NCBI RefSeq assembly: GCF_002214525.1
Contig: NZ_CP015104.1
Location: forward strand, 248,001 to 312,000
DNA from: Thermococcus sp. P6
Lineage (GTDB): Archaea; Methanobacteriota_B; Thermococci; Thermococcales; Thermococcaceae
Length of the DNA: 64,000 nt
Reading direction: 5' to 3'
In this document: piece by piece, positions 1-6,222 of the stretch
How the letters are laid out: every line of letters begins with the position of its first letter
Position numbering within the stretch: position 1 is the first letter of the stretch
Program-made: the position numbers and the translations under genes
Notes under the pieces: generated by a model
The model's database searches: none
Seen by the model: only the letters and a program-made list of their open reading frames with translations
Told to the model about the DNA's origin: nothing

Positions 1-1495
1 TCAGGTGGAGTTCGGTTAGACGGGCCTCGTAGTAGATGGGAACAACAACGTTGTGCCGTCTGGCTTTGTCCATGGGGTAGGCACTAACGTAATCACCAAA
101 CACCAGAAACGTGGAACGGTCATCGTAGTCAATGGGAGTGGCGGTGAAGGCCAGGAAGGAAGCGTTGGGGATGGCCCTTCTGAGGTTCTGGGCCAGTTGC
201 CCGTACTGGCTCCTGTGGGCCTCGTCCGCTATCACGATTACGTTTCGCCTGTCCGTCAGGAATGGGTACTCCTCGTCCTTTGACTTTCGGCCGAACTTCT
301 GGATGGTGGCGAAGATTATTCCACCGGGAGTTTTCTTGATCGCCTCCTGAAGTTCGGTTATGCTTTCCACATGCTCGGCCTCGGTAAAGACGTTCGCAAA
401 GACCTCATAGAGCTGTTCATCGAGCTCTCGCCGGTCGGTAAGGAAGATGAGAAGCGGGTTATTCAGTTCCCTGACCTTAAGAACCTTTTTGGCGTAGAGG
501 AGCATGGTTATGGATTTGCCCGTTCCCTGAGCGTGCCATACTATGCCTATCCGTCTGTCCTCCGGTTTTTCTCCGTGAAGTACTGCTCGCATCGTCCTTT
601 CAACGGCTTTCTTTACGGTGTAAAACTGGTAGTAGGTGGCGATTATCTTCGAGTAACTCTTTCCTCTCCTGTCGTAGACGATGAAGTCCTCCAGATACTC
701 CAGCAGGTGCTCCCTGCGGAAGAGTCCCATTAGCAGTATATCCAGACTGGTGTACTGTTTGCCGTTGTATTCGTAGGCGAGGGCACCGTGCCCCTCGACT
801 TCTATGGGCCTCACATCGTCATCGCTCATAACCCCCTCCCAGACGAAAAAGCGGTCCCAACCGCTGGTGGGGGAGCCGTAGCGGGTTTCGACTCCATCGC
901 TGGCGACCAGTATCTGGGCGTACTGGTAGAGCTGTGGAATGTCCTTCTTCTTGACGTCGTGGTCGTTGAACGCGTCCTTTGCCGTTTGATTGGAGTTATA
1001 ACCCTTGAACTCGAAGATGGCAATCGGGAGCCCGTTTATGAATACCACCATGTCCGGTCTCCTGAAGCGGTCGTTCTCGTAGTAGTACTCGACGGTGAAC
1101 TGGTTGGACACGAGAAACTCGTTGTTATCCGGATTCTGGAAGTCAACGAGCCTTACGAACCTCGTCTTCTCCTCGCCCCCGGTCTTGAAGGTGAGCTTTA
1201 CGCCCTTTGAGAGCATATCGTAGAACAGCATCCCCCTGACGACGAAGTCCGGATGGTCCGGGTTCCTGACCATCTCGTAAACCTTCAAGGCCAGCTCGTC
1301 GGTTAGCCATGGGTTGAGCCGCTTTACGGCCCTCAGGAACCGGTCCCGCAGGATGACGTCACGGTAGGATTCCCTCTCCCCTTCTTCAGGGGTGAGCTCG
1401 GAGCCGTGGACGTAAGCGTAACCCAGCCCCTTTAGAACGTTGATGGCCGTGTCCTCGACCATGTAACCCTCGTTTAGCCTTGCCCCTTCTCCCAT
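1..1495 (-). CDS. hsdR: Type I restriction enzyme R subunit (HsdR), C-terminus cut by window edge
   Basis: This is the ATP-dependent translocase and endonuclease subunit of a type I restriction system. The reading frame is open from the ATG at 1495 to the left edge, so about 498 N-terminal residues are visible. In order they show a PD-(D/E)xK nuclease core (D148, then E162-F-K164), Walker A AQGTGKS at 322-328, a DEAH box at 424-427 and helicase motif FTATP near 450. These motifs are intact, so the visible part looks functional. It is the last gene of the operon hsdM, unknown gene, hsdS, hsdR, with a 58-base gap after hsdS. The stop codon and the C-terminal HsdM-docking part lie outside the window. 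Confidence 0.95.
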   Translation of the reverse strand, partial: MGEGARLNEGYMVEDTAINVLKGLGYAYVHGSELTPEEGERESYRDVILRDRFLRAVKRLNPWLTDELALKVYEMVRNPDHPDFVVRGMLFYDMLSKGVKLTFKTGGEEKTRFVRLVDFQNPDNNEFLVSNQFTVEYYYENDRFRRPDMVVFINGLPIAIFEFKGYNSNQTAKDAFNDHDVKKKDIPQLYQYAQILVASDGVETRYGSPTSGWDRFFVWEGVMSDDDVRPIEVEGHGALAYEYNGKQYTSLDILLMGLFRREHLLEYLEDFIVYDRRGKSYSKIIATYYQFYTVKKAVERTMRAVLHGEKPEDRRIGIVWHAQGTGKSITMLLYAKKVLKVRELNNPLLIFLTDRRELDEQLYEVFANVFTEAEHVESITELQEAIKKTPGGIIFATIQKFGRKSKDEEYPFLTDRRNVIVIADEAHRSQYGQLAQNLRRAIPNASFLAFTATPIDYDDRSTFLVFGDYVSAYPMDKARRHNVVVPIYYEARLTELHL

Positions 1496-1553
1496 TGTAT
1501 CACCTTGACTCTGAAATTCTTTCTTGTTCAACGATGGAGTCTTCTTTTAACAC

Positions 1554-2773: not shown

Positions 2774-4432
2774 TTAATCCCCTCCATATTTGGGGATCAT
2801 GTAAACTGCCAGCACCACTCCTCCGTTATGTGGGATTGGCAGAATATGTATTTTGACGCTTTCGTTTGAAAGTTGTTTATTGGCCCTTTTCTCTATTTCG
2901 GTTATCATGTCATTTTTTAGATGCCGGATTGGGGCAATAGTGGAATCATCTTCTATTCCGTAGGTTATACAGTACCTCCTTGTAGGTCCGTCTAAATATT
3001 TTTTAATAGTAGGGACTAATTTCTTTTCTGTGAATCTAGCGGGCTTTCTGAGGATAGAATCATCCGCAGACTTAAACTCTAAAATGTCTTCCTTTTGCAA
3101 GTTTCCCGGGTGTCTAAATTCATATTTAATTTCTTCTATCAGTATGTCATCCATAATAAACTCGAACATGCTTTTAAGGTGTCCGTTTTTAATATTTTCA
3201 CTGTAAACTTTGCACAATAGATATTCCATTAATAATCTGCCTTTTCTGCTCTGGGCATCTTGGATTTGCATCATAAGGTTATTTGAGAAGTCCAAAATTT
3301 CTTCTGGAACCTCAACTTTATTGTATATTTCCAGATTTCCAAGTTTGAATGGCTCTAATGTAGTTTCTTCTCCCGCGTGCCAGACCCTGATTAACTCTCC
3401 GTTCCCATTGAAAATCGAATTGTATAACTTTATTAAAAAGCCCCTCTTAGGATGTATTCCCGGTCTTGCAGTGGTGCAAAAGCATATTGTGTAATTTGGA
3501 TGTTCTTTTTTGAATAGCCTTTCTTCACTATTTTCGGTGACTTTGTAGAGGTATACCTCATCCTCCGTATACTGGTACCTAATGTTAGAATAGTACGTCA
3601 TCAAATTCGTTTGGGATGGAACAATTTTCATGAATTCCTTTTTATAGGAATTGAGTTTCTCAGTCCAAGCCACGAACATATCGTAGAATTCATTATAGTT
3701 ATATGCTTTATTTCGGACGAACACTTTTGTTATTCTCCCTTCATCTTTTCCAATCTTTATTTTTCCAGTTGTGGAAATGACACCTGTACCAATGAGCTCT
3801 TTTAAGTCATCTTGTTCTATGGGCAATAAAATGGGGAAAGAAAAGGTATCAAGCTCAATGTTGAGTTTTATTGATCCTAATGATTCCCACCCTACTTCCT
3901 CGGGCTCTATTCCCCAGAATTTTGCGTGCCCCTTACTGAGTCGCTTACTATATTCAAAGGCCGCAAAGAGCACATCCTTTTGAGTTCGTTTTATGATATC
4001 TGCTCGTATGATGTTTTTTGGATGCAACACCACTCTAACTGAATATAGTCCCTCCTCAATCTCAGCTAAAGAGGGATCTTTCCGACTATGAACTATTACC
4101 AAAACGTCTTTCATCTGAAGAACTCCAACTATGAACTTGTCTGCCTCTTTTGATTTTGTGTTTAGTGATGCCCTAAATGTATCTATCAGATATTCTACTT
4201 CATCGTCCCTTTTATTGGGATAGGAATCCATTATTTTTTTAATCCACTTCTTTACAGAGCTATTTTCTGGTTCAACATCATTTTCAAAGTCTCTCCATAC
4301 TTCAATTTTCTTCTCCAACGCTCTTAATAAACTGTATATATCTTCCTCCACTGTTACCTCCTTGGAATTGAGAATGTCCTTCGTGCTCTTGCTGGGCTTT
4401 GTTGCAGATTTACTCCAAAAATATATTTTCAT
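2774..4432 (-). CDS. Unknown protein inserted between hsdM and hsdS; possible Schlafen/AlbA_2-like C-terminus
   Basis: A 552-residue protein that is not a standard type I subunit. It lies 12 bases after hsdM and 2 bases before hsdS, with its own GAGGGG ribosome site, so it is co-transcribed with the system. There is no signal peptide or membrane segment. About 1-440 are unrecognised, with alternating beta and charged helical stretches. The C-terminal ~104 residues (LEFK at 451-454, then YCITYGIEDDSTIAPI, then GGVVLAVYMIP) resemble the AlbA_2/Schlafen fold, in which E-x-K can be part of a nuclease site; this match is an inference by eye. Base composition is much richer in A+T than neighbours: the 60 bases from 3181 contain 17 G or C. 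It may be a recently acquired defence or anti-restriction-response partner, comparable in position to PrrC in other hsd loci. Confidence 0.8.
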   Translation of the reverse strand: MKIYFWSKSATKPSKSTKDILNSKEVTVEEDIYSLLRALEKKIEVWRDFENDVEPENSSVKKWIKKIMDSYPNKRDDEVEYLIDTFRASLNTKSKEADKFIVGVLQMKDVLVIVHSRKDPSLAEIEEGLYSVRVVLHPKNIIRADIIKRTQKDVLFAAFEYSKRLSKGHAKFWGIEPEEVGWESLGSIKLNIELDTFSFPILLPIEQDDLKELIGTGVISTTGKIKIGKDEGRITKVFVRNKAYNYNEFYDMFVAWTEKLNSYKKEFMKIVPSQTNLMTYYSNIRYQYTEDEVYLYKVTENSEERLFKKEHPNYTICFCTTARPGIHPKRGFLIKLYNSIFNGNGELIRVWHAGEETTLEPFKLGNLEIYNKVEVPEEILDFSNNLMMQIQDAQSRKGRLLMEYLLCKVYSENIKNGHLKSMFEFIMDDILIEEIKYEFRHPGNLQKEDILEFKSADDSILRKPARFTEKKLVPTIKKYLDGPTRRYCITYGIEDDSTIAPIRHLKNDMITEIEKRANKQLSNESVKIHILPIPHNGGVVLAVYMIPKYGGD

Positions 4433-6152: not shown

Positions 6153-6222
6153 CTTAATAGCTTTTCGTACCCCAGTGCGTTCGGGTTCGTTGAAGCTGGC
6201 CTTAATGCTTCGCTCATACGTG
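6153..6222. repeat. Imperfect direct repeat upstream of hsdM
   Basis: The segment CCTTAATAGCTTTTCGTAC (from 6152) is partly repeated as CCTTAATGCTTCGCTCATAC (from 6200). AATCTGGAG flanks both copies (6137 and 6213). The first copy overlaps the presumed hsdM promoter. It could be a remnant of a duplication or an insertion scar, or a regulator binding pair. Nothing else is visible in 6116-6345. Confidence 0.4.

Follow-up and report, generated by a model that had tools for sequence, protein, structure and literature searches.

It is already known that type I restriction-modification (R-M) loci can house extra or toxin genes (PMC3506569; PMC5183652). In the type IC hsd locus EcoprrI, the embedded gene encodes PrrC (PMC3874165; PrrC is also treated in PMC12707154), an anticodon nuclease composed of an ABC-ATPase and a HEPN-type RNase, whose role as a guard of restriction is proven. 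The repeated displacement of toxins in R-M loci has been discussed together with the hypothesis that immunity and suicide are coupled (PMC3506569), and PMC5183652, relaying Miller et al. 2005, describes the rlo/mlo open reading frames (ORFs) that intervene in Campylobacter hsd loci. A second body of knowledge concerns the Schlafen/AlbA_2 domain. In SLFN14, the glutamates of the ExxxxExK motif bind metal and are required for cleavage, the aspartates of the GVDD motif matter less, and SLFN5 is without nuclease activity (PMC12215978); AlbA_2 domains, as exemplified by SAMD9, bind both DNA and RNA (PMC11221667).

The window, a 64,000-nucleotide stretch of DNA from Thermococcus sp. P6, contains most of a type I operon in the order hsdM-X-hsdS-hsdR, which is complete in the genome of this member of the Thermococcales (1.52 Mb, single contig), and in which X is a single-copy gene of 552 codons (Table 1). 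The initial annotation had recognized an intact reading frame between hsdM and hsdS that was not a restriction subunit. That description holds: the frame is unbroken, the gaps are again 12 bp from hsdM to X and 2 bp from X to hsdS, and X, which is missing from the sister operon L087, has no R, M, or S domain by Pfam. The junction of X and hsdS reads AAATATGGAGGGGATTAAGTATG, with the Shine-Dalgarno sequence GGAGGGG of hsdS falling in the last codons of X, and the two genes are therefore probably translationally coupled. As in EcoprrI, an extra non-Hsd gene thus lies within a type I operon. Unlike PrrC, X has neither an ABC nor a HEPN domain by Pfam, carrying a Schlafen-like C-terminus instead, and its identification as a PrrC was rejected. 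X is also AT-rich in its surroundings, at 37.1% GC compared to 53.7% for hsdM, 41.9% for hsdS, and 52.2% for hsdR. A GC content of 34-40%, likewise below that of the adjoining methyltransferase (MTase) gene, is found in the other copies checked. Such AT-richness relative to neighbors is common for mobile cargo.

Table 1. Features of the type I operon in the window and of its accessory protein X (all on the minus strand; aa, amino acids)
Feature	Position	Strand	Basis or remark
hsdR, 5′ part (HSDR_N, SWI2/SNF2)	1..1531	-	extends beyond window; full ORF 1043 aa in genome (L002:6400-9531)
hsdS, specificity subunit, 405 aa	1554..2771	-	Methylase_S 1.5e-27
X, 552-aa accessory protein, cargo of the hsdM-hsdS slot	2774..4432	-	intact ORF, ATG start; family alignment
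X C-terminal divergent Schlafen/AlbA_2-type domain, about residues 430-552	2774..3145	-	PF04326, PDB, and hhalign evidence
hsdS Shine-Dalgarno GGAGGGGAT, within final three codons of X	2777..2785	-	sequence read
E494-D495-D496, acidic residues where the Schlafen GVD(D) strand ends	2945..2953	-	alignment
E448-x3-E452-x-K454, candidate metal-binding/catalytic motif, equivalent of Schlafen ExxxxExK	3071..3091	-	alignments
X N-terminal conserved region, residues 1-235, invariant H115; candidate sensor or partner-binding part	3728..4432	-	alignment
hsdM, type I DNA adenine methyltransferase subunit, 556 aa	4445..6115	-	Pfam N6_Mtase E=1e-105, HsdM_N 8.5e-24
BRE/TATA-like CGAAAAGCTATTAA, ~40 bp before hsdM, candidate single operon promoter	6154..6167	-	consensus resemblance only

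Judged by its sequences, the X family is real, and the window's copy is not a chance ORF, since homologues of similar length (~20-45% identity) are conserved. A single-sequence search located X in 4 of 94 Thermococcales genomes and a search with the family alignment in 10, comprising eight intact copies, one broken copy (G073), and one remnant (G012). The broken copy (L013:7414-9017) has in-frame stops and split ORFs and is distant from any hsd gene. Outside the Thermococcales, X has members on a single Woesearchaeota contig (45% identity) and on a pair of plasmids from haloarchaea, the matches among 72,556 plasmid records being confined to archaeal plasmids. No relatives appeared in the phage records or the viral contigs scanned, and no further copies among 279 genomes of a phylum sample around the Woesearchaeota genome; NCBIfam, PHROGs, and PADLOC returned nothing credible.

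The C-terminal ~110 residues of X appear to form a divergent Schlafen/AlbA_2-type domain, as supported by Pfam, PDB profile, and hhalign comparisons, which agree with the initial annotation in its reading of an AlbA_2/Schlafen-like C-terminus bearing an LEFK motif (residues 451-454) while staying below curated thresholds. PF04326 (SLFN_AlbA_2) is the one Pfam family with matches in two or more X members: three members match, at 12-18 bits over their full length, short of the gathering threshold of 25.3, and with E-values of 0.0005-0.07 for the C-terminal domain alone (0.07 in the window). When the C-terminal profile was compared to the whole PDB, the five best matches were all Schlafens (among them SLFN14, E=0.011; SLFN11, 0.036; Schlafen 8, 0.15). 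A reversed-alignment control produced one match at E=0.009, to unrelated families, so that a single PDB E-value near 0.01 means little and the Schlafen E-values are insufficient alone. Against Thermococcus AlbA_2 domains, hhalign gave a score of 26.4, compared to a maximum of 19.0 among 200 column-permuted controls and 14.1 for a reversed control, and its alignment lays the X motif on the start of AlbA_2 and a GI(D/E) strand on GVD. With a local AlbA_2 HMM, however, only 3 of 11 X members beat nearly all shuffles at the expected place. X thus shares with the Schlafen/AlbA_2 proteins (PF04326; SLFN11/13/14, SAMD9/9L) a stretch of ~110 residues whose alignment covers the GVD strand and the motif with its acid-x-K. 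It differs from them in scoring below the Pfam threshold and in the absence, on alignment comparison, of the FAN-x-GG and C-terminal Y-x-R-x-G signatures of prokaryotic AlbA_2. For these reasons we do not file X as a Pfam AlbA_2 member and regard it as a divergent relative by profile comparison.

A further difference lies in the N-terminal ~400 residues, which are without sequence similarity to Schlafen/SAMD9 proteins, have no detectable relatives, and gave no match as a profile against the PDB. AlphaFold models, with a pLDDT of 38.7 for X (from a two-sequence alignment) and 45.7 for the C-terminal part alone, were too poor for a reading of the fold.

Across the family, the motif takes the form E-x(3-6)-[ED]-x-K. 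Its [ED]-x-K is kept in nine of nine diverse members, and the spacing of the upstream glutamate varies, with ExxxxExK exact in L004, L005, and L010 and one residue shorter in the window. The third acid is kept in seven of the nine and replaced by Asn in two. The alignments nominate E448, E452, K454, and E494 as candidate active-site residues. Since [ED]-x-K is likewise the core of PD-(D/E)xK enzymes, a resemblance remarked upon by the SLFN14 authors (PMC12215978), the EFK of X might instead belong to such a fold and X serve the restriction system as an additional DNA nuclease; this is very improbable, considering that all profile evidence points to Schlafen/AlbA_2 and that Pfam, even at relaxed E-values, returned no PD-(D/E)xK family. 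The incomplete acids of some members, together with the nucleic-acid binding of AlbA_2 domains (PMC11221667) and the nuclease-free SLFN5 (PMC12215978), raise a different prospect, in which the domain binds without cutting and X is an accessory or regulator, for example a DNA-binding gate of restriction or methylation. We consider such a role improbable, given the retention of [ED]-x-K in all nine of those members, the sister operons that manage without X, and the company that X keeps in its genomic position, described below, where the nameable exchange partners are defense effectors and not regulators.

Seven of the intact Thermococcales loci can be assessed for their genomic setting, and in every one of them X comes immediately after a DNA-adenine MTase gene, at a gap of 1-99 bp; the MTase is of type I in four and Eco57I-like in three, and the eighth intact copy (L031), which starts near a contig end, falls outside this count. 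Four of the eight intact copies, those of the window, L011, L012, and L028, lie between hsdM and hsdS, and the initial annotation's proviso that X might be absent from all other hsd loci has thus been answered by its recurrence there. Three others (L027, L029, L030) lie directly behind a large Eco57I/MmeI-like MTase of 988-1283 aa, assigned by Pfam in L027 and by similarity in L029 and L030. Around L027 (4865-18411), which is on a Thermococcus profundus plasmid, and in L029 and L031, an Eco57I-like MTase and X are accompanied by an AbiEi/AbiEii-like pair and a PLD-helicase, which in L027 and L029 lie downstream, with a coiled or membrane protein in addition in L029 and L031; these loci look like a composite restriction-type defense system. 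On the Woesearchaeota contig, X is two genes behind hsdM, in the order hsdM, DUF3800, membrane protein, X. No annotated MTase was found near the two haloarchaeal copies, which limits any claim of a strict coupling between X and an MTase. On one of these haloarchaeal plasmids, phalar01, a canonical AlbA_2 protein (PF04326 E=4e-18; L010:7976-8887) is encoded just downstream of X.

Within this lineage of archaeal type I operons, the junction between hsdM and hsdS serves as a cargo slot. We compared 39 complete junctions drawn from the regions around hsdM genes in Thermococcales genomes. Extra same-strand genes, of 15 families (17 including the Woesearchaeota locus), are present at 20 of them, hsdM and hsdS overlap at 18, and a single junction (L098) has a 402-bp gap without an ORF of 80 aa. 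A tree of HsdM places the operons with cargo in three groups, all well supported: the window with G069 and the Woesearchaeota operon; three Kiwa-bearing operons; and a set of 16 operons, 15 of them with cargo, in which the end branches of HsdM are short (about 0.006-0.1) despite repeated change of cargo. X is present in the first and third of these groups. In G069, the window's nearest sister operon (identities of 63% for HsdM, 44% for HsdS, and about 60% for HsdR), the place of X is taken by cargo unrelated to it, a 102-aa membrane protein and a 317-aa DUF5677-like protein. The absence of X from sister operons indicates that it is dispensable for the restriction enzyme. The initial annotation, which had taken X to be built as part of the system, was right as to its integration in the operon; X is, however, no fixed part but one of many exchangeable cargo modules at the junction, and it also occurs behind the Eco57I-like, non-type-I MTase and on haloarchaeal plasmids that have no annotated MTase nearby.

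Among the recognizable cargo is a known defense system. In three Thermococcales genomes, Kiwa (KwaA-KwaB) occupies the same slot between hsdM and hsdS (L090:3516-5254, L091:3457-5219, L092:3664-5426), with KwaA identified by PADLOC (E=6.5e-19) and KwaB by Pfam (6.7e-7, above the cut-off). Of the four KwaB-like genes that the order yielded at E up to 0.01, two exceed the cut-off, and three of the four are in the slot. In L091 and L092, a 156-aa membrane protein precedes Kiwa. Also recognizable are a weakly HEPN-like DUF4145 protein and proteins of the PIN and PIN_2 families, some of which include membrane segments. For X itself, kinship with KwaB, suggested by similar N-terminal strand patterns, was rejected: the hhalign E-value was 0.52, X has no PF16162 match, and no KwaB similarity is detectable in it. 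The archaeal cargo resembles the Campylobacter rlo/mlo genes in consisting of variable ORFs between type I hsd genes, and differs from them, as PMC5183652 describes them, in that they are bacterial and the archaeal cargo includes Kiwa and X.

Since other defense genes fill the slot in sister operons, the restriction system probably carries X as a back-up immune effector, and because the slot demonstrably carries Kiwa, an effector role is the leading reading for X. The main rival is that X uses the operon merely as a landing site: a stand-alone defense module parked in a tolerated insertion site, borrowing promoter and translation and having no functional link to restriction. Kiwa is elsewhere known as a stand-alone system, and a slot that houses unrelated modules including Kiwa, AT-rich cargo that is swapped while HsdM barely changes, and haloarchaeal copies without an annotated MTase would all suit such a module. 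An association with adenine MTases of two kinds in every assessable Thermococcales locus, however, exceeds what one insertion hotspot would account for, and between the window and the Woesearchaeota contig X (45% identity) and HsdM (41%) are about equally conserved. On balance, an independent module is the less likely reading.

We instead favor, at a probability of roughly 0.5, the reading of X as an exchangeable immune effector of the hsdM-hsdS slot, with a C-terminal Schlafen/AlbA_2-type RNase and PrrC-like logic. By analogy with EcoprrI, where a latent RNase effector is coupled to the restriction enzyme and the guard role of PrrC is proven, X is most likely a PrrC-like guard that would act through RNA cleavage; we infer its nuclease activity, its RNA target, and its gating by the Hsd complex. 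X would be co-expressed with the subunits for methylation and specificity. The sensing of infection, or binding to the methyltransferase complex, would probably fall to its N-terminal ~400 residues, and its C-terminal domain would likely be the effector, most probably cleaving RNA in a metal-dependent manner via E448, E452, and K454. X would stay latent while the restriction enzyme is intact or a trigger is lacking; infection, or a block or failure of restriction, would release it to cut RNA and shut down translation. A more specific version, which we advance only tentatively, is that a Schlafen-type RNase guards archaeal type I restriction, being held inactive by Hsd and released by anti-restriction to cut tRNA or rRNA.

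If this is true, archaeal DNA restriction would be coupled to a Schlafen-like translation shut-off, and the operon slot would exchange this effector for Kiwa or PIN modules. Archaea would then have their own form of the link from DNA restriction to dormancy or suicide effectors, one with swappable cargo. The initial annotation had suggested that an archaeal guard with a Schlafen-like effector would be a new defense arrangement. Extra and toxin genes in type I loci are known, and the newness would lie in the X effector family, which is unnamed in Pfam, NCBIfam, and PADLOC, and in the archaeal slot, both of which appear undescribed in the literature searched. Searches of the open-access literature, where an absence is weak evidence, for Schlafen genes or accessory genes accompanying type I R-M turned up no paper that describes this arrangement, and no account of the X family, of the archaeal slot, or of Kiwa lying between hsdM and hsdS was found. 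The slot further serves as a discovery tool for archaeal defense genes, since the recognizable Kiwa makes the unnamed cargo families there strong candidates for new ones, which are testable in Thermococcus genetics.

The diversity of such cargo extends over L089, L093-L097, L099, L100, L102, L105, L106, and L108, which carry a 346-351-aa membrane protein, a pair formed by a PIN protein and a 117-aa membrane protein, a PIN_2 protein with a membrane segment, a DUF4145/HEPN-like protein, and proteins of 595 and 762 aa that gave no match. In a different operon lineage (L109-L114), with an HsdM of 619-623 aa, hsdM and hsdS overlap and variable genes lie instead between hsdS and hsdR, an interval that is a second cargo slot.
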